Origin: Pseudomonadota bacterium
GTDB lineage: Bacteria; Pseudomonadota; Alphaproteobacteria; SHVP01
DNA: 64,000 bases
Direction of reading: 5' to 3'
Assembly (NCBI GenBank): GCA_027622715.1
Contig: JAQBYN010000009.1
Coordinates: 1-64,000, forward strand
The notes under the pieces were generated by a model. The model was not told where the DNA came from, did no database searches, and saw only the letters and a list, made by a program, of their open reading frames with translations. Below, one piece after another: positions 2,015 through 19,548 of this stretch. The position numbers were made by a program, and so were the translations under genes. How positions within the stretch are numbered: position 1 is the stretch's first letter; each line of letters starts with the position of its first letter.

Positions 2015-3175
2015 ATGCAGCTCGCGCAGCGCATGGCGCAACTGGGCACTGAGACCGCCTTTGATGTTCTCGCACGCGCCGAAGCCTTGCGCGCACAGGG
2101 CAAGGACATCATCAGCCTGGGCATCGGGCAGCCCGATTTTCCGACGCCACCGCATATCGTTGAAGCCGCGATCAAAGCGCTGAAGGACGGACACCACGGC
2201 TACACCCCTGCCAACGGCATTGTGCCGCTGCGCGAGGCGGTGGCGGCCGACGTGCTGAAATACCGCGGCGTCGAGATCAACCCGGACAACGTCGTGATTA
2301 TGCCGGGCGGCAAGCCGACGATGTTCTTTTCGATCCTGATGTTCGGCGAGCCCGGCGCTGAGATCATGTACCCCAATCCGGGGTTTCCGATTTACGAATC
2401 GGTGATCCGTTTTTCCGGCGCGACGCCGGTGCCGATTGAATTGCACGAGGCATCGGGGTTCTCGTTTTCGGCCGACGAGGTGCTGGGGCGGATCACCGAT
2501 AAAACCCGGCTGATTATCGTCAATAGCCCGGCCAACCCCACCGGGGGCATCGTAAAAGAAGAAGAATTAGACAAATTTGTCAAAGGGTTAGAAGCCTTTC
2601 CTCATGTAGTAGTTTTGTCCGACGAGATCTATTCGCGGATGCTGTATGACGGCCATTGCCACAAATCGTTGCTGGCTTACCCGGCGTTGCGCGACCGGCT
2701 GATCGTGCTGGACGGCTGGTCGAAGACCTATGCGATGACGGGGTGGCGGCTGGGCTGGAGCTTGTGGCCTGACGCGCTGGCGCCGCACGCGGCCAAGCTG
2801 GCGGTCAACGATCATTCTTGCGTCAACGCAGCGACGCAGTGGGCCGGGATCGCCGCCCTGACCGGACCGCAGGACGCGGTCGACGCGATGGTGCGGGCCT
2901 TCGACGAGCGCCGCCAGCTGATCGTCGGGCGCTTGAACGCACTGCCCGGCGTGTCGTGCGTGACGCCGCTGGGCGCGTTCTATGCATTCCCCAATATTAC
3001 CGGCACCGGGCGCAGCGCGGCCGAGTTGCAAAACGCGATGCTGAACGAGGCCGGGGTGGCGACGGTGGCGGGGACCAGCTTTGGGGCACTGGGCGAAGGC
3101 TATGTGCGGTTTTCCTACGCCGCGTCGACGGCGCAGATCGACGAGGCGATGACGCGGATCGCTAAGATCCTCTAG
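2015..3175 (+). CDS. PLP-dependent class I/II aminotransferase
   Basis: GIGQPDFPTP, SPANPTGG, DGWSKTYAMTGWRLGW; internal ATG at 2015 fits the family N-terminus better than 1946. Confidence 0.93.
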   Translation: MQLAQRMAQLGTETAFDVLARAEALRAQGKDIISLGIGQPDFPTPPHIVEAAIKALKDGHHGYTPANGIVPLREAVAADVLKYRGVEINPDNVVIMPGGKPTMFFSILMFGEPGAEIMYPNPGFPIYESVIRFSGATPVPIELHEASGFSFSADEVLGRITDKTRLIIVNSPANPTGGIVKEEELDKFVKGLEAFPHVVVLSDEIYSRMLYDGHCHKSLLAYPALRDRLIVLDGWSKTYAMTGWRLGWSLWPDALAPHAAKLAVNDHSCVNAATQWAGIAALTGPQDAVDAMVRAFDERRQLIVGRLNALPGVSCVTPLGAFYAFPNITGTGRSAAELQNAMLNEAGVATVAGTSFGALGEGYVRFSYAASTAQIDEAMTRIAKIL

Positions 3176-3188
3176 ATCTGCGCGTCGC

Positions 3189-3800
3189 CTATGGTTCGAC
3201 GACGGCGAGCAGGACGCTGGCGCCTATGGTCAACGCGCCGCCGAGGCGCTGGCGGATCGTGCCGCCGGTTGAGCCGTCGAGCAGCCGGCCGGCGCCGCTC
3301 GACACCACGGCCCAGCTTGAGGCGGTGATGACGGTGACCGCGGTAAGTGCCAGCGTTAGGGCGACGAACTGCGGTGCCGGCGAAAGTGCCGGGTCGAGAA
3401 AATTCGGCACGATCGCGGCGAGGAAGATGAGGCGCTTGGGGTTGAGCGAGGACACCCCGAAGCCGAGCCAAAACGGTTGGCGCCCCAGGATGCTCGCCCC
3501 TGCCCCGTTGGTTGCGGGCCGGGTGAGGAATTGCTGGATGCCGAACGCCAGCAGCATGGCGATACCAGCCCAGCGCACATAGGCGAACCAGGGCCCGAGG
3601 AAGATCATCACCGGACCCAATGCCAAGGCCAAAATGAGCATGTGGGGCGCAATCGCTAGGGCCGAACCGAGCGCGTTCAACAAGGCCGCGCGCAAGCCAT
3701 GCGCCATGCCGGTCGCGACCACCAACATGACGTTGGGACCGGGGATCAGCATGAGCACCAGCATCACGCGGACGAAGGCGAATAGGGTCTCTTCGGGCAT
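3189..3800 (-). CDS. LysE/RhtB family translocator
   Basis: LMLIPGPNVMLVVATGMAHGLRAALLNALGSA; SSLNPKRLIFLAAIVPNFLDP. Confidence 0.9.
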   Translation of the reverse strand: MPEETLFAFVRVMLVLMLIPGPNVMLVVATGMAHGLRAALLNALGSALAIAPHMLILALALGPVMIFLGPWFAYVRWAGIAMLLAFGIQQFLTRPATNGAGASILGRQPFWLGFGVSSLNPKRLIFLAAIVPNFLDPALSPAPQFVALTLALTAVTVITASSWAVVSSGAGRLLDGSTGGTIRQRLGGALTIGASVLLAVVEP

Positions 3801-3855
3801 TGAGGGGGCACCGCGCTGAAGGCGCGTGAGGGTACACCGCGACTTCGGACCGGCG

Positions 3856-4479
3856 CTAGCGCCTGGCCGCAGCAAGCGCGGCGCCGGCGGCGATCATGAT
3901 GGTGCCGCTGAGGCGGTCGCGCCAGAGCCATGCGGTGGGGGTGCGCAGCAGGATGCGGGCGCGGTCGGCGAAGTAGGCCCATAGCGTCGTGGTGACGAGC
4001 GCGGTCGCCACTAGGGTGACGCCCATGATGACGAGTTGCGCCGCAGGTGGGCGACTTGGGTCGAGGAATTGGGGGAGGATCGCGGCGAAGAACAACAGGC
4101 TTTTGGGGTTGAGGGCGGAGACCGCGAATCCGTGCCAGAAGGTGCGGCGGGCGTGTCGCCGATCTGGTGGCGCGTCGGGCAACGGCGGCGCGGCTCCAGC
4201 CCGGCGCCACTGCACAAGACCGAGATAGATGAGGTAGACCACACCAGCCCACCGAATCAGGTCGAACCACTGGGCGGCGAACAGCAGCACTGGGGTGAGG
4301 CCGAGCGCGAGGATAACGACCTGCCCGGCGACGGCGCCGCACGCACCGACGACATTCGCCATGCCGGTGCGAAAGCCGTGGGTCAGGCTAACGCCGACGG
4401 CGAGCATGACCGATGGCCCGGGGATCAGCATCAGCACGACGGCGGCCGCGAAGAATGTCAGAAAGGTGTCGAGGGCCAT
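3856..4479 (-). CDS. LysE/RhtB family translocator (tandem paralog)
   Basis: LMLIPGPSVMLAVGVSLTHGFRTGMANVVGA; SALNPKSLLFFAAILPQFLDPS; start set at MALDTF. Confidence 0.9.
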   Translation of the reverse strand: MALDTFLTFFAAAVVLMLIPGPSVMLAVGVSLTHGFRTGMANVVGACGAVAGQVVILALGLTPVLLFAAQWFDLIRWAGVVYLIYLGLVQWRRAGAAPPLPDAPPDRRHARRTFWHGFAVSALNPKSLLFFAAILPQFLDPSRPPAAQLVIMGVTLVATALVTTTLWAYFADRARILLRTPTAWLWRDRLSGTIMIAAGAALAAARR

Positions 4480-4580
4480 GGCGTGTCTCCGTGCATCGCC
4501 AGCGGAGCAAGCCACATGGGAGGTCGCGATGTCACCCCCATGCGGGACCAACGACGAAAGGTGGCGCGCCCTGCCTCGCC

Positions 4581-4605
4581 CATCTGCACACTTCTTATGC
4601 AGATG
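4581..4605. promoter_or_regulatory. Perfect 8-bp dyad CATCTGCA-N9-TGCAGATG containing an NtrC-like TGCAC-N8-TGCA core
   Basis: Read directly; about 100 bp upstream of the candidate sigma54 promoter of glnB. Confidence 0.5.
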
Positions 4606-4682
4606 CCTCAAATGAAGGCAGTAGGATCGCCGGTTGGGGTGGGAGAAAGCGCTCAATTCCGGGGCTTTTCGCGCCGCGGCAC

Positions 4683-4700
4683 TTGGCATATCCGGTGCAA
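4683..4700 (+). promoter_or_regulatory. Candidate sigma54 (-24/-12) promoter of glnBA: TTGGCATATCCGGTGCAA
   Basis: GG and GC elements separated by exactly 10 nt; 42 nt before the glnB ATG. Confidence 0.6.
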
Positions 4701-4712
4701 TAATAGGGGTGA

Positions 4713-5081
<369 letters not shown>

Positions 5082-10785: not shown

Positions 10786-11175
10786 TTAGATGATCACCGC
10801 ATAGAGAGTGTAACCACCGCTGGCTAGGACCGCGAGCCAGGTCAGCGAGGCACCAAGCCCGCGAAGTGGCGCGGACGCCTTGAGCGGATCAAGACCGACG
10901 ATGTGCGCCAGCCGACCGACCAAGAGGCCGATCCCGACGATGTGAATGAATAGGCTCGGTGCGCCGAGCGTCTCTGCGGCGCCGAGCGCAATCAAGGTGA
11001 TCGGCACCCATTCGATGAAGTTGCCGAAAACCCGAACCGCTTTGCGTAGGTCGAGATGATCGCCGTCGCCGACCGAGAGTTTGTACTTCGCGCGTAGAAC
11101 GCTGACCCGAATGCCGAGCGGCAGCGTGAGCAAGGTCAGAATAGCGATGTAAATGGCTGTCGTTTCGATGGTCAT
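10786..11175 (-). CDS. MAPEG family membrane protein
   Basis: IRVSVLRAKYKLSVGDGDHLDLRKAVRVFGNFIEWVPITLIAL. Confidence 0.85.
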   Translation of the reverse strand: MTIETTAIYIAILTLLTLPLGIRVSVLRAKYKLSVGDGDHLDLRKAVRVFGNFIEWVPITLIALGAAETLGAPSLFIHIVGIGLLVGRLAHIVGLDPLKASAPLRGLGASLTWLAVLASGGYTLYAVII

Positions 11176-11288: not shown

Positions 11289-11678
11289 TCACATCACTGC
11301 CGCATAAACAAGATACCCGCCTGTCGCCGCGGCGCTGGCCCAGGTGAGCAGGACGCCGGCTGTGCGGGCCGTGGTGGCGCGCTCGGCGTTGAGGCCGAGT
11401 ACGTGGGCGACGCGGCTAACGATCAGCGCGATGCCGACGAGATGAATGAGCAGCGCGGGCGCGCCCACCATCTCGGAAACGACCAGCGCAATGACGATCA
11501 TCGGCAGCCATTCTGTGAAGTTGCCGAACGTGCGAATGGCGTGCTGCAGGTCAGGCTGGCTGCCCGCACCCATCGATACCCTGTGTTTGCGGCGCAGGAC
11601 CGAGACCCGCGCGCCGATCACCAGCATCAATAGGGTGATGAGGCCGACGTATCCGACCGAGATATGAATTTCAGCGAT
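11289..11678 (-). CDS. MAPEG family membrane protein, second copy; likely AUC initiation (ORF track starts at 11630)
   Basis: ARVSVLRRKHRVSMGAGSQPDLQHAIRTFGNFTEWLPM; homologous N-terminus IAEIHISVGYVGLITLLMLVIG lies upstream of the called TTG; AAGGAG 7 nt before ATC; length then equals the paralog (390 nt). Confidence 0.75.
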   Translation of the reverse strand: MAEIHISVGYVGLITLLMLVIGARVSVLRRKHRVSMGAGSQPDLQHAIRTFGNFTEWLPMIVIALVVSEMVGAPALLIHLVGIALIVSRVAHVLGLNAERATTARTAGVLLTWASAAATGGYLVYAAVM

Positions 11679-12632: not shown

Positions 12633-13016
12633 TCAGGAATCGGCGATCGGTCGCGGCTTGCCCCGATCGTCGATGGCAACGTAGACGAAAATGCCTTCGG
12701 TGACTCTGACCTCTTCGCCGCCGAACCGGCGGGTGGCAAAGGTGTCGATCTTGACCGTGAGCGAGGTTCGCCCTGTCTTAACGAGCTCGACGTAGCAACT
12801 GACCAGGTCGCCGATGAAAACCGGTTTGTGGAAGGTCATGGCTTCGATCGCCACGGTTGCGGTGCGGCCGCGCACGACCTGGGCGCTCAACGCCCCGCCG
12901 GCCAGGTCCATCTGCGACAGAACCCAGCCGCCGAAAATGTCGCCGTTGGCATTGGCATCGCCGGGCATCGCCATGGTGCGGATCGCGGGCTCGCCGCTAG
13001 GCCTTTGAGGTTCCAT
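12633..13016 (-). CDS. Hotdog-fold acyl-CoA thioesterase (YciA-like)
   Basis: MAMPGDANANGDIFGGWVLSQMDLAGG…MTFHKPVFIGDLVSCY. Confidence 0.92.
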   Translation of the reverse strand: MEPQRPSGEPAIRTMAMPGDANANGDIFGGWVLSQMDLAGGALSAQVVRGRTATVAIEAMTFHKPVFIGDLVSCYVELVKTGRTSLTVKIDTFATRRFGGEEVRVTEGIFVYVAIDDRGKPRPIADS

Positions 13017-13112
13017 GGTAACTCCCTACCACATCTTGTTGTTGCAGTTTGAGAATATACCCTATAGTGCGCACGCGTTGGCGAGTCCATTTGGTAGTCC
13101 GGTTGCACGGCG

Positions 13113-15074
13113 ATGACCGACCTTTTTGAAAATAGCGGCAAGAACCGCGGCAAATCCTATTCCGCCAAGGACATCGAGGTCCTGGAAGGGCTTGAGCCCG
13201 TGCGCCGGCGGCCCGCCATGTATATCGGTGGCACCGGCGAAGACGGGCTGCATCACCTCGCCGCCGAGGTGATCGACAACGCGATGGACGAGGTTCTGGC
13301 TGGCGCGGCGACCCGCATCGAGGTCGAGTTCCACGGCGATGGGTCTTTGACGGTGCGCGACAACGGCCGCGGCATCCCGGTCGACCCCCACCCCAAGTTC
13401 AAGAATAAGTCGGCGCTGGAGGTCATCCTGACCACGCTGCATTCGGGCGGCAAGTTTACCAACAAGGCCTATGAGACATCCGGCGGGCTGCACGGGGTCG
13501 GCGTTTCGGTGGTGAATGCCCTGTCGGACTGGCTGACGGTCGAGGTCGCACGCGACAAAAAGCTGTGGCACCAGCGCTATGCTCGCGGCAAGCCGCAGGG
13601 CAAGCTGACCTCGAAGCCGATGACGAACCGGCGCGGCAGCGCCCTGACATTCCATCCCGACCCGGACATTTTCGGCGCCGATCTGGTGATGAAGCCGGCC
13701 CGGCTGTACCGGTTGGCGCGCTCCAAGGCCTATTTGTTCCGCGGCGTCGAGATCCGTTGGAAATGCGATCCGGCGATGATCGGCAAGACCGACGTGCCGA
13801 CCGAGGCGGTGTTTCATTTTCCCGGCGGACTGGTCGATGCGTTGGCCGAAGAAATCGGCGACCGTGAAACAGTTACGCCGACGCCGTTCATTGGCCAGGC
13901 TGCATTTAACGGGTCGGGCCGCGTCGAATGGGCCGTCACCTGGCCCGCCGACGGCCAGACGTTCGTCAGCACCTACTGCAACACGGTGCCGACGCCGCAG
14001 GGCGGCACCCATGAAAGCGGCATGCGCAGCGCCCTCGCCCGCAGCCTGAAGGCCTACGGCGCTATGGTGAAGCGGCGCGGCGCGGCGCAATTCACCACCG
14101 AAGATATCAGCGGCGACGCCGCGTTGATCGTCTCGCTATTCATGTCCGAGCCTCAGTTCCAGGGCCAAACCAAAGAGAAACTGGTCAGTGTCGAGGCCGC
14201 CAAGCTGGTCGAGAACGCCGTCAAAGACCATTTCGATCACTGGCTGACCGGCAACGCCGAGGCCGCCAACGAGCTGCTCGATTATGTCAGCGAGCGGGCC
14301 GACGAACGCCAGCGGCGGCGCCAAGAAAAAGACGTCTCGCGGCAAAGCGCCAAACGTAAACTTCGGCTGCCAGGAAAACTATCGGACTGTTCGGCCGGTC
14401 AGGCCGATGGCACGGAAATATTCTTGGTCGAGGGCGATTCGGCGGGTGGGTCGGCCAAGCAGGCGCGCGACCGCCGGCTGCAGGCGGTGCTGCCATTGCG
14501 CGGCAAAATCCTCAATGTCGCGAGCGCCGGTGTTGGCAAGATTCAGGAAAACCAGGAGATCGCCAACATCGTCCAAGCGTTGGGCTGCGGGATCGGTGAG
14601 AAATACAACGAAGCGGGCCTGCGCTACGACCGGGTCATCATCATGACCGACGCCGACGTCGATGGCGCACATATTGCCGCGCTGTTGATGACGTTTTTCT
14701 TTCGGGCGATGCCGAAGTTGATCTATGACGGGCATCTTTACCTCGCGCAGCCGCCGCTTTATCGCCTGTCGCAAGGCGGTACGGTGTTTTACGCGCGCGA
14801 CGACGCGCACCGCGAGGAGCTGCAGAAGACTGAATTCGCCGGACGCGGTAAGCTTGAGATCAGCCGGTTCAAGGGTTTAGGTGAAATGCCGTCCGCGCAG
14901 CTTCGCGAAACAACCATGGACCCGGCCAAACGCACGCTTTTGCGGGTCGTGGTGGCGGAAAACGAACGCCGGGGCACTGATAAATTTGTCGAGAGTTTGA
15001 TGGGGCGCAAACCGGAAAATCGATTAGCGTTTATACAAGAGCACGCGGCCGACGCGGCCGACCTGGATATTTAG
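13113..15074 (+). CDS. parE: DNA topoisomerase IV subunit B
   Basis: EGLEPVRRRPAMYIGGTGEDGLHHL, EVIDNAMDEVLAG, FLVEGDSAGGSAKQARDR, IIMTDADVDGAHI. Confidence 0.96.
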   Translation: MTDLFENSGKNRGKSYSAKDIEVLEGLEPVRRRPAMYIGGTGEDGLHHLAAEVIDNAMDEVLAGAATRIEVEFHGDGSLTVRDNGRGIPVDPHPKFKNKSALEVILTTLHSGGKFTNKAYETSGGLHGVGVSVVNALSDWLTVEVARDKKLWHQRYARGKPQGKLTSKPMTNRRGSALTFHPDPDIFGADLVMKPARLYRLARSKAYLFRGVEIRWKCDPAMIGKTDVPTEAVFHFPGGLVDALAEEIGDRETVTPTPFIGQAAFNGSGRVEWAVTWPADGQTFVSTYCNTVPTPQGGTHESGMRSALARSLKAYGAMVKRRGAAQFTTEDISGDAALIVSLFMSEPQFQGQTKEKLVSVEAAKLVENAVKDHFDHWLTGNAEAANELLDYVSERADERQRRRQEKDVSRQSAKRKLRLPGKLSDCSAGQADGTEIFLVEGDSAGGSAKQARDRRLQAVLPLRGKILNVASAGVGKIQENQEIANIVQALGCGIGEKYNEAGLRYDRVIIMTDADVDGAHIAALLMTFFFRAMPKLIYDGHLYLAQPPLYRLSQGGTVFYARDDAHREELQKTEFAGRGKLEISRFKGLGEMPSAQLRETTMDPAKRTLLRVVVAENERRGTDKFVESLMGRKPENRLAFIQEHAADAADLDI

Positions 15075-15104
15075 CGGCGGTCCTACCCGCCCGGAGGAAG
15101 CGCG

Positions 15105-15662
15105 ATGATCGGACGGATGACACTGCTTTTTGCTGGCACGGTATTGCTCGCTGCATGCGCCGGGGCGCCAGCCGGTACATTCTCGGGCACACGCGGCGCC
15201 ACGATCTCCCCGTTCTACGCCCCGGCCTTGGTGAGTTACGTGGCACGAAACGGGACGTTCCCCGTGGTGGTCCGCGGCAATCCATTCGGCGGCGTGCCGC
15301 AGGCCCAGCTCGAACAGGCGTTGCATCAGCGGATGCGTCTGCCCGGCTGGGCGCCCAATGCACGATTTGCCGCTGACCCGGCCGCCGAAGCGGGCACCGG
15401 TTTACGCCTTGTTGTTCTGTTCAACCCCGCCGGCACCGTGGGATTGCGGGCGGTTTGCGGTGACCTATCGGGCATAACGTATACCGGGCCAGCCAATCAG
15501 ATGACGATGAGGGTCGGGTTTTGCGACGGCCCACAAAGTATGTCCGATGTGACGTTGCGCACGGCGCCGCCACCAGACGAAACGAGTGCAGCGTTCGTCG
15601 GCGCCTTAAACAACGCGGCCGCATCGGCGCTACCATTTATCGATCGCAACACCGGTCAATAA
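15105..15662 (+). CDS. Putative lipoprotein, tandem paralog 1 of 3, unrecognised family
   Basis: Signal peptide with lipobox LLAAC; GTFPVVVRGNPFGG, GLRLVVLFNPAG, VGFCDG. Confidence 0.75.
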   Translation: MIGRMTLLFAGTVLLAACAGAPAGTFSGTRGATISPFYAPALVSYVARNGTFPVVVRGNPFGGVPQAQLEQALHQRMRLPGWAPNARFAADPAAEAGTGLRLVVLFNPAGTVGLRAVCGDLSGITYTGPANQMTMRVGFCDGPQSMSDVTLRTAPPPDETSAAFVGALNNAAASALPFIDRNTGQ

Positions 15663-15743
15663 TTTGGGTCTTGAAGAAGATTGGGGCACGGCCCATGTTG
15701 CTGTCGCAGGGGAATCAAGGTGGGCTGTAGAGGGGTCCTAACC

Positions 15744-16322
15744 ATGAGTCGCCTAAAGATTATTTTTGCCGCTGTAATTTTGGGCGGACTGACGGCATGT
15801 ACCGCGTCCGACATTGTTATCTCCGGTTTGGGACCTAGCGGACTGCCGTACGACCCGAGCATCGTGCGGTATGTCGTTGGCCAAGGCGACTTCCCGTTGG
15901 AACTGCACGGCAATCCAAGCAATCTCGATGACGACGCCTTTGCCACGCTGGTCGAATCCCGGCTCCGCATTGAGCCCACTTTCGGCAAGACGACGTTTCG
16001 CCGCGACCCACAGACAAAGAACCGGCACCCATTCCGTCTTGTTCTCGTCTTCAACGCCGCCAATCCTCGAATAAGCGCGCGGCACGTCTGCGAGGGCGAG
16101 GATCTCGACAACGCGGGCGGGCCCAATTCGACACTTTTTGTACGGGGCGTTTTTTGCGACGGTCAGACCGTTCTTTCGGAAGACAGCGCACTGACAAATG
16201 CGCCGGAAGATTTTACGGACGAGCGTTTGCAGCGGTTGCTCGACAGGCTGCTGGAGGAATTGCTTCCCGGCGAAGGCCGCCGCGATATCAATGTGTCCTG
16301 CCCGACGGCGAACTGCAGATAG
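15744..16322 (+). CDS. Putative lipoprotein, tandem paralog 2 of 3, unrecognised family
   Basis: Lipobox GLTAC; GDFPLELHGNPSNL, PFRLVLVFNAAN, GVFCDG. Confidence 0.78.
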   Translation: MSRLKIIFAAVILGGLTACTASDIVISGLGPSGLPYDPSIVRYVVGQGDFPLELHGNPSNLDDDAFATLVESRLRIEPTFGKTTFRRDPQTKNRHPFRLVLVFNAANPRISARHVCEGEDLDNAGGPNSTLFVRGVFCDGQTVLSEDSALTNAPEDFTDERLQRLLDRLLEELLPGEGRRDINVSCPTANCR

Positions 16323-16323
16323 C

Positions 16324-17043
16324 GTGCCGGTCACGCGCGGCGTACTTGTCGGCCTGGTTGCCGCCGTGGGACTGTCGGCCTGCATTGCCGTGACACCGGA
16401 ATTGGTGCACGACGGTGGTCCAGTCGATCCCAATTATTCGCGCGATTACGTGTCCCTCATCATTGGTGCGGGCGCCATCCCGACGGCGTTGCACGGCAAC
16501 CCGTCGGATCTCGCTGACACCAATTTTGATGACTTGGTGATGCAACGGCTCAAGTTGCCACCGGTGTGGGGGCCACACCGCTTTGCACTCGAGCCCGACC
16601 CGCCGCCCACTCACGGATACCGCGTCGTCTTGGTCTTCAACCCCGAACTTGACGGGGTCAACAGCCCGGCGACGCAGCCGAATGCACCTGCGGATTCGAC
16701 CGCGCGGTTCGAACTTGCGCTGTGCAGCGGGCGCATAAGAGTGAATGAGTCAGGGCCCTACCCAAAGCTCCCCTGGAAACGCTTAGAGCGGTTCCGCAAC
16801 CGGAGCCTTTCGCCGATCTCGCCGCGTTATCTCGCTGAGCGCGTGCTGGTGCGCGGCGCCCTGTGCCTGGGCGACGTCCCCATCTCGTCGGGTTTTGTCG
16901 AGACCCAAGCCCTTGCAGACTATAGCGCGCCCGAATTCGTTCAGGTTCTTGACCTGCTCATGTTGCGCCTAATGCCTTACCGCGCCCTTCCCTCTGAATG
17001 CCCCGACAAGACGAACTGTGCGCGCACAGGCGGGCCGAATTAG
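16324..17043 (+). CDS. Putative lipoprotein, tandem paralog 3 of 3, unrecognised family (GTG start)
   Basis: Lipobox GLSAC; GAIPTALHGNPSDL, GYRVVLVFNPEL, RGALCLGD; starts 1 nt after the paralog 2 stop codon. Confidence 0.75.
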   Translation: MPVTRGVLVGLVAAVGLSACIAVTPELVHDGGPVDPNYSRDYVSLIIGAGAIPTALHGNPSDLADTNFDDLVMQRLKLPPVWGPHRFALEPDPPPTHGYRVVLVFNPELDGVNSPATQPNAPADSTARFELALCSGRIRVNESGPYPKLPWKRLERFRNRSLSPISPRYLAERVLVRGALCLGDVPISSGFVETQALADYSAPEFVQVLDLLMLRLMPYRALPSECPDKTNCARTGGPN

Positions 17044-17735
17044 GTCGCGTCCAACCAATCGCCCATCAGACCAGTAACGGCCTCGGGCTCCTCCATCGTG
17101 GACAGATGACCGCAGGCGGGGAGCAGGTGGAGCGTCGCGCCGGGAATCAGGTCGGCGAGTTCGCGCATAACCTCGGGCGGGGTGATGAGATCGTCGACGC
17201 CGCCGACGACCAATGTGCGGCAGGCGATCTGGGGCAAGGTCGGGCGGCTGTCGATGCGCCCCATGATGGCGGTCTGCTGGCGCACGAAACCGGCCTGACC
17301 GACATCTTCCGCCATTGCCGCGATGCGGCCGACGAGCAGCGTGTCGTCGAGACGGTCCGGGTGGATGAGCAGCGGTAGCAGCCGAGGGGTGACCCCTTTG
17401 AACTGGCCGTGACGCGAGAGGTCGATCAATCCGCGCCGCCGCGCCAGCTGGTCGTCGGTATCGGGCCGGGCCGAGGTATCGAGGAGCGCGAGATGGGTCA
17501 CCCGACCCGGCGCTTGCCGCATGACCTCCTGGGCGACATAGCCGCCCATCGAGAGGCCGGCCAAAGCAAACCGGTCCGGCGCCTTGGCCAGGAGGCGTTG
17601 CGCCATCCCGGCAATCGAGTCGTCTTTGGTGACGTCGGCCACCGAAATCTGGGCAATATGCGCGAGATGAGCGATTTGATGCGCCCACAATTCCCGGTTG
17701 CAAAGGAGGCCGGGGATGAGAACCAAGTCTGTCAT
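17040..17735 (-). CDS. Alpha/beta hydrolase
   Basis: LVLIPGLLCNRELW, LAGLSMGGYVAQEVM, VVGGVDDLITPPE, PACGHLSTMEEP. Confidence 0.9.
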   Translation of the reverse strand: MTDLVLIPGLLCNRELWAHQIAHLAHIAQISVADVTKDDSIAGMAQRLLAKAPDRFALAGLSMGGYVAQEVMRQAPGRVTHLALLDTSARPDTDDQLARRRGLIDLSRHGQFKGVTPRLLPLLIHPDRLDDTLLVGRIAAMAEDVGQAGFVRQQTAIMGRIDSRPTLPQIACRTLVVGGVDDLITPPEVMRELADLIPGATLHLLPACGHLSTMEEPEAVTGLMGDWLDAT

Positions 17736-17910
17736 TGGCCCCTATTTAGCATGCTGCCGGCGGCCCCCAGCAACCGCCCCGGCGCCGTTGTCGGGGGTAT
17801 CGGCACCGCGCTGGTGGGAGGGCGCGGGATTTGACCGCCCTGTGCAATTGGGGTATCGCTGCGCATAATGACGACATATTCGCGTTTTCCTCCGCAAGCT
17901 ACGGGTTTTC

Positions 17911-19548
17911 ATGAGTTTTTCGGAACTCGGGCTTAGCGACGAGGCCCTACGGGCCGTCGCGGACGCCGGCTACCACACGCCAACGCCGATCCAACAGCAG
18001 GCGATCCCGATCATCTTGCAGGGTCGTGACGTGCTGGGTACGGCGCAAACCGGCACCGGTAAGACGGCGTCGTTCACGCTGCCGATGATCGACATCCTGG
18101 CGGCGGGGCGGGCTAAAGCCCGGATGGCGCGCTCGCTGATTCTGGAACCGACGCGCGAACTCGCGGCCCAGGTTCAAGAAAGCTTCAAGGTTTACGGCAA
18201 GTACCACAAGCTCACCGTCGCGCTGCTGATCGGCGGCGTGCGTATGGAAGAGCAAGAACGCCTGATCGATCGCGGCGTCGACGTTCTGATCGCGACACCG
18301 GGCCGCTTGTTAGATCACGCGGAACACGGCGGCCTGCTTTTGGGCGGCCTGAAAGTTCTGGTGATCGACGAAGCCGACCGCATGCTCGACATGGGCTTTA
18401 TTCCCGATGTCGAGAAGATCGCGAAACTTGCGCCGACTTTGCGCCAGACGTTGTTTTTCTCGGCCACCATGCCGAAAGAGATTCGTCGGTTGGCCGACCG
18501 ATTTCTTCAAAACCCTAAATCGGTGTCGGTTGATCCACCCGCCTCGCCCGCCGAGACGGTCGACCAATTGTTGATATACATCGACGCCGCGGACAAACGC
18601 GAGGCCATGCGCTCGCTCCTCAAACAGCATGAAGTGCCTAGCGCCCTGATCTTTTGCAACCGTAAGCGCGATATTGGCGTTCTCACGCGCTCACTCAAGA
18701 ACGCGGGCTTTGACGCACTCGAATTGCACGGCGACATGTCGCAACCGGCGCGCACCGAAACTCTTGAGAAATTTCGCCGCGGCGAATTCACGATCTTGGT
18801 TTGCAGCGATGTGGCTGCACGCGGGCTGGACATTCAGGGCCTACCTTTTGTGTTTCTTTACGATGTTCCAACGCACGCCGAAGATTACGTTCATCGCATT
18901 GGCCGGACGGGCCGTGCGGGTATGGTTGGGCGCGCTATTACGCTCGCGACCCATGAAGAAGCCAAATATGTCGGCCAGGTTGAGCAGTTGATCGGCCGGC
19001 CCATCCCCATGGGGAGCCTGCCCAATTTTGAGCGCGGGCAACCCGATGAAGACCAAAAGCGGGGTCGTAAAAGCCGGGGCGGTCGCGGGCGTTCCGGGGA
19101 ACGCAGTGCACCGGTTGCTGCGGTGCAACCGGCCGAGACGCCCTTGCGAACGGCGCCAGAGGCCAGCCCAGTCGCGGCCGAAAAACCCAAAGGTCGCGTC
19201 CGGCGCCGACGCAGCGCCACCGGCGTCGCCCAGGCCGAATCAGTCGACGCCACGCCAACACCAGATGTCCAAGAGACCGCGGCACCTCGCACCGAGACGC
19301 CTGAGGCCGCGCCGACCACTGAGAAATCCGAGGGCCGATCTGCCGCCCCTCCGGCGCGGGCCGTCCAACGCCCGCCGCGCGACGATCGGCAGCCGCGCAA
19401 CGACCGCCAAGATCGCGGCGACAAGCCGGTCGTCGGACTAGGCGATCATATGCCCGCTTTCTTAATGGCGACGATGCCCGGCAGCGAGACCACCGACGAC
19501 GCCAGCGACGACGAGAAAAAGCCGCGCCGCCGCAGAAAATCGAGTTAG
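17911..19548 (+). CDS. DEAD-box RNA helicase with low-complexity charged C-terminal tail
   Basis: AQTGTGKTASF, DEADRMLDMGF, SATMPKEI, HRIGRTGRAG. Confidence 0.96.
   Translation: MSFSELGLSDEALRAVADAGYHTPTPIQQQAIPIILQGRDVLGTAQTGTGKTASFTLPMIDILAAGRAKARMARSLILEPTRELAAQVQESFKVYGKYHKLTVALLIGGVRMEEQERLIDRGVDVLIATPGRLLDHAEHGGLLLGGLKVLVIDEADRMLDMGFIPDVEKIAKLAPTLRQTLFFSATMPKEIRRLADRFLQNPKSVSVDPPASPAETVDQLLIYIDAADKREAMRSLLKQHEVPSALIFCNRKRDIGVLTRSLKNAGFDALELHGDMSQPARTETLEKFRRGEFTILVCSDVAARGLDIQGLPFVFLYDVPTHAEDYVHRIGRTGRAGMVGRAITLATHEEAKYVGQVEQLIGRPIPMGSLPNFERGQPDEDQKRGRKSRGGRGRSGERSAPVAAVQPAETPLRTAPEASPVAAEKPKGRVRRRRSATGVAQAESVDATPTPDVQETAAPRTETPEAAPTTEKSEGRSAAPPARAVQRPPRDDRQPRNDRQDRGDKPVVGLGDHMPAFLMATMPGSETTDDASDDEKKPRRRRKSS

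Follow-up and report, generated by a model that had tools for sequence, protein, structure and literature searches.

The window, by which we mean the whole 64,000-nt stretch of DNA analysed here, contains three consecutive genes on the same strand, LP1, LP2 and LP3, each of which opens with a lipobox signal peptide. The features of this region, with the basis of each assignment, are as follows:

12633..13016, minus strand: 4HBT acyl-CoA thioesterase, divergent from parE (Pfam, synteny)
13113..15074, plus strand: parE, topoisomerase IV subunit B, 30 nt upstream of LP1 (Pfam, synteny)
15105..15662, plus strand: LP1, lipoprotein of 185 aa, lipobox LLAAC, Cys18 (ORF, translation, homologues, AlphaFold model)
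15744..16322, plus strand: LP2, lipoprotein of 192 aa, lipobox GLTAC, Cys19 (ORF, translation, AlphaFold model)
16324..17043, plus strand: LP3, lipoprotein of 239 aa, lipobox GLSAC (ORF, translation, orthologue in genome G001)
17040..17735, minus strand: alpha/beta hydrolase, convergent, its last 4 nt shared with those of LP3 (Pfam, synteny)
17911..19548, plus strand: DEAD-box RNA helicase (Pfam DEAD and Helicase_C, synteny)

Open reading frames and translations agree with an earlier note on this DNA as to the three lipobox genes and the tight LP2-LP3 junction, where LP3 begins with a GTG (16324) 1 nt past the LP2 stop. LP2 starts with the ATG at 15744, 81 nt from the end of LP1, and a GGAGG stands a short distance 5′ of the LP1 ATG. 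A sigma-70 consensus scan, which is weak evidence in Alphaproteobacteria, found no promoter-like site in the region. The DEAD-box gene (17911..19548), which we take to be RhlE-like, is the last member of the block and is followed in the window by an enoyl-CoA hydratase gene on the plus strand. Elsewhere in the window, two tandem small ORFs on the minus strand (10786-11175 and 11289-11630) are related to each other at about 49% identity and presumably encode MAPEG proteins.

We found that LP1, LP2 and LP3 are homologous beyond chance, as proposed in the earlier note. BLASTP E-values range from 4e-16 for LP1 and LP2 (29% identity over 164 columns) to 1e-10 for LP1 and LP3, and with LP2 as query against the whole genome the only matches were LP1 and LP3 (E 1.2e-12 and 1.7e-15). 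The ordered motif set that had been described ([FI]P-x3-[RH]GNP, R[LV]V[LV][LV]FN and [RV]G-x-[FL]C-x-G, with an earlier Cys) was found in all three proteins; the likeness of LP1-LP3 also extends beyond these motifs, running end to end at about 25-30%. LP3 carries an insert of about 40 residues around its two conserved Cys. A profile built from the three sequences found no fourth copy in the window's genome, even at E 10.

Another genome of the genus (G001) carries orthologues of all three genes in the same order, again with 1 nt at the LP2-LP3 junction. Identity between the orthologues is 70-75%, compared with 91% for ParE, and the corresponding dN values are 0.17-0.24 for LP1-LP3 and 0.05 for ParE. 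With dS of 1.7-2.0, the dN/dS ratio of LP1-LP3 in this pair is about 0.09-0.14, a rough figure because dS is near saturation. LP1-LP3 are therefore under purifying selection in the genus, and synteny together with dN/dS rules out chance or artefactual ORFs.

Next, we looked for the family to which these proteins belong. Profile searches of the window proteins and 24 homologues against Pfam and NCBIfam gave no convincing match, in keeping with the earlier impression of an unrecognised family; none of the 24 members matched PF03886, and neither these nor the window proteins matched PF13036 (LpoB). A profile search of genome contigs with the three-sequence alignment yielded no confirmed relative. 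Nothing in PHROGs or PADLOC matches LP1-LP3, and a phage or defence origin was rejected on that ground. The two PDB sequence matches, to a cytidine deaminase and an aminotransferase (E 0.02-0.03), are partial and unconvincing. Our literature search for the family, its parE neighbour or a parE-rhlE block found nothing relevant, and the annotation of one homologue, from a plasmid of Azospirillum thermophilum, reads just "hypothetical protein".

The family is nevertheless widespread. A 24-member profile detected it in 89 of 385 genomes sampled evenly across Alphaproteobacteria (64 of 277 genera), and a 98-member profile run against 399 genomes across the phylum gave full-length matches in Alphaproteobacteria only; four matches in other classes, short, marginal and confined to the N-terminal part, were discounted. 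By these profile searches the family looks confined to Alphaproteobacteria within the phylum. Carriers retrieved through ParE include several Azospirillum species and Parvibaculum sedimenti, and metagenome-assembled genomes (MAGs) labelled Inquilinus, Reyranella and Hwanghaeella. Leaving aside any specific role, we consider it highly probable that LP1-LP3 belong to an alphaproteobacterial family that has no name and is made up of small secreted proteins, most of them lipoproteins.

The most constant feature of the family is a pair of cysteines (Cys118 and Cys140 in LP1, Cys116 and Cys138 in LP2), both invariant across an alignment of 98 members, most of which are 14-34% identical to LP2. A second pair lies at the C-terminus of LP2 (SCPTANC, window 16301-16319) and LP3 (ECPDKTNC, 16996-17020) and is lacking in LP1; across homologues the spacing n of this Cys-x(n)-Cys is mostly 2-7. 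The last 35 residues contain no Cys in 84 of 120 members and exactly two in the other 36, never one or three. Furthermore, 86 of the 95 lipoproteins that could be scored have two or four Cys after that of the lipobox, and several of the nine odd counts reflect mis-assignment of the lipobox or start codon by the script. Because the first pair is invariant and the mature Cys count is almost always two or four, each mature protein likely contains one or two disulfides, so that the conserved disulfide put forward earlier as possible now appears likely.

A pattern search recognised a lipobox in 95 of the 120 members. The residue at +2 is Ala in LP1, Thr in LP2 and Ile in LP3, and the Asp that, by the rule established in E. 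coli, confers Lol avoidance occupies this position in only 5 of the 95 (about 5%). This rarity makes sorting to the outer membrane likely under the E. coli rule, in support of the outer-membrane location named in the original proposal. Among the 25 members in which the pattern found no lipobox, at least a dozen look like plain secreted proteins, the others being fragments or lipoboxes that were missed; accordingly, lipidation is common in the family and not universal.

By synteny comparison, the position beside parE, proposed earlier as a point to check, is kept in relatives. The usual order is 4HBT(-) parE(+) LP(+) [hydrolase(-)] DEAD(+). In a set of 100 loci chosen for carrying a family gene, that gene adjoins parE, the DEAD-box gene or both at 58 loci, some of them truncated where the contig stops; these 58 represent 32 of 43 family-level groups. 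On the same strand, 45 loci have parE upstream and the DEAD-box gene downstream, 7 have parE only and 6 the DEAD-box gene only, and parE is directly upstream at 52. The gap between parE and the lipoprotein gene, with start codons picked mechanically, is often below 100 nt and sometimes a 4-nt overlap. At the remaining 42 loci no neighbour recurs across lineages; at two non-parE loci (L130 and L143) a mechanosensitive-channel-like gene, 34% identical to the window's MscS, lies just downstream of the lipoprotein gene or genes. In the reverse view, 24 of 80 loci fetched by ParE alone hold a family gene, one of them as a triple, and no family gene was detected in the remaining 56. The block itself (12633-19548 in the window; 4HBT, parE, [hydrolase], DEAD-box) is also kept in many alphaproteobacterial genomes in which no lipoprotein gene was detected. 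Since the 42 loci away from the block lack a common neighbour, the place beside parE is probably an old, kept location with co-transcription, not the mark of a shared pathway, and what it offers the gene is probably constitutive co-transcription and not a part in chromosome segregation.

We then asked how the array arose. In a tree built by a quick method, in which many forks are weakly supported, LP1 groups with G007, G165 and one gene of G004, and LP2 and LP3 fall with G003 and two genes of G004 (SH-aLRT 92 and 89). The window's family therefore appears to hold two old types, LP2 and LP3 being a later split. Close relatives carry different sets at this locus, one LP2/3-type gene in G003, one LP1-type gene in G007 and both types in G004. 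Two or three copies were found at about 17 of the 100 loci, and the pair at L040, as well as two of the three genes at L227, are sisters (SH-aLRT 97 and 99). Tandem copies in this phylogeny have thus arisen more than once, and the old duplication suggested by the earlier note holds for LP1 versus LP2/LP3, with comparable tandem copies elsewhere of separate origin. The L227 genes (2939-4742, MAG Alphaproteobacteria IP29b_bin.128) form a second triple array, of separate origin, right after parE, in which the genes overlap or nearly abut.

This history bears on whether LP1, LP2 and LP3 together are a required hetero-oligomeric unit. That two genomes of the genus keep the same order and spacing, and that tandem copies recur, would suit such a unit; however, single-copy relatives exist in the same family and the tandem copies at L040 and L227 are separate duplications, and we regard an obligate hetero-oligomer as unlikely. 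Because one gene or two suffice at this locus in close relatives, the hetero-complex suggested in the earlier note may form, but an assembly of all three parts is no necessity.

Structure models suggest a common fold for LP1 and LP2. AlphaFold gave mean pLDDT values of 85.6 for LP1 (24-sequence alignment) and 88.7 for LP2 (96-sequence alignment), and the two models have the same order of elements: helix, strand, helix, strand, short helix, long hairpin and long helix, with the first conserved Cys in the short helix and the second in the long hairpin. In Foldseek searches of the PDB, PelC chains rank first for both models and fill the top 15 to 17 places, with a best E of 1.5e-3 and probability of 0.98 for LP1 and an E of 1.2e-2 and probability up to 0.95 for LP2. 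The match is weak, with TM values of 0.3-0.5 (by query length at most 0.41) and superposition rmsd of 8-11 Å.

PelC (PDB 5T10, 5T11, 5T0Z), which acts in Pel exopolysaccharide export, is, as predicted for this family, a small outer-membrane lipoprotein whose periplasmic part is a single alpha/beta domain, and it assembles into a dodecameric ring beneath the PelB barrel (PMC12141448). PqiC, an outer-membrane lipoprotein reported to be structurally homologous to PelC, is an octameric toroid (PMC10897342), and CsgG, TolB_N and DUF330 share one Pfam clan (PMC3173608). The present family is set apart from PelC by its invariant Cys pair and its GNP, RVVLVFNP and AAFC motifs, and the window's genome has its own separate gene for the PqiC domain (ABC_trans_aux, DUF330, PF03886; G000:C67). 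LpoB, CsgG, the TolB N-terminal domain and DUF4136 are also envelope proteins with small alpha/beta domains, but are absent among the Foldseek matches listed. A 24-member profile found no PelC match among all PDB sequences up to E 10. Profile-profile comparison with PqiC, CsgG, DUF4136 and TolB_N gave no link, PqiC matching in the signal-peptide region only; this comparison is insensitive, as known relatives among those families also missed each other. The locus showed neither pel nor pqi genes; its conserved neighbours are parE, the DEAD-box helicase, the thioesterase and the hydrolase. Since sequence searches tied the family to none of PelC, PqiC and LpoB, and the profile-profile comparison, insensitive as it is, was negative, the modelled likeness to PelC would serve as a lead on mode of action and not as a sign of membership.

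Accordingly, we propose a tentative model. Each protein would be exported, usually lipidated and then most probably delivered to the outer membrane. Its mature part would form a single alpha/beta domain in the periplasm, stabilised by a disulfide that joins the invariant Cys, and in some members the C-terminal tail would add a second disulfide. Because this domain resembles PelC over other solved structures, the most likely mode of action is that of an oligomeric collar or scaffold tethered to the outer membrane, which may hold or gate an envelope partner encoded elsewhere; in the window, duplication of the gene would have produced three subunits, perhaps of a common assembly. We place the probability of this whole account, including the collar or scaffold role, at roughly 0.35. 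A more specific version, in which a class-specific ring distantly like PelC and PqiC serves an envelope-spanning system and the parE-block gene was repeatedly duplicated into hetero-oligomer subunits, seems to us improbable.

Alternatively, the proteins may act as tethered monomers, as periplasmic sensors, binding proteins or adaptors, the likeness to PelC being mere shared small alpha/beta topology. The weak TM values, the members without a lipobox, the variable loops and the fast divergence (dN 0.17-0.24 against 0.05 for ParE) would all fit, and we hold this as a serious candidate at somewhat less than even odds; it must be set against the fact that PelC tops two Foldseek searches that differ in both query protein and alignment. 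An LpoB-like role, in which an outer-membrane lipoprotein reaches through the peptidoglycan to activate a peptidoglycan synthase as LpoB does PBP1B, is quite doubtful. A recognisable LpoB is absent in 20 of 21 relatives searched, so that its role might be filled otherwise, and LpoB is itself an outer-membrane lipoprotein (PMC9593243). The conserved neighbourhood, however, holds no synthase gene, and LpoB appeared neither in profile matches nor among the structural matches listed. LpoB spans the distance to its partner with a long disordered linker, whereas in our models just about 20 residues separate the lipobox from the first helix.

Most improbable of all is a role functionally tied to ParE or to the DEAD-box helicase, such as coordinating segregation with the envelope. 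The frequent placement of parE directly upstream on the same strand, with short gaps or overlaps, would favour it, yet 42 of the 100 loci lie elsewhere with no consistent neighbour, 56 of the 80 ParE-fetched loci have no detected copy, and the lipoproteins and the ParE and helicase proteins would occupy different compartments; that the flanking thioesterase and hydrolase are kept as well suggests a conserved block.

Taken together, these results describe a family that is missing from the family libraries searched. Roughly one in four of the sampled Alphaproteobacteria carries it, its cysteine pair is invariant, and its place next to an essential gene is strongly kept. If its members do form a PelC- or PqiC-like collar, they would point to an undescribed envelope system of Alphaproteobacteria, and the sets of paralogues would be a natural test of the change from a homo- to a hetero-oligomeric ring.
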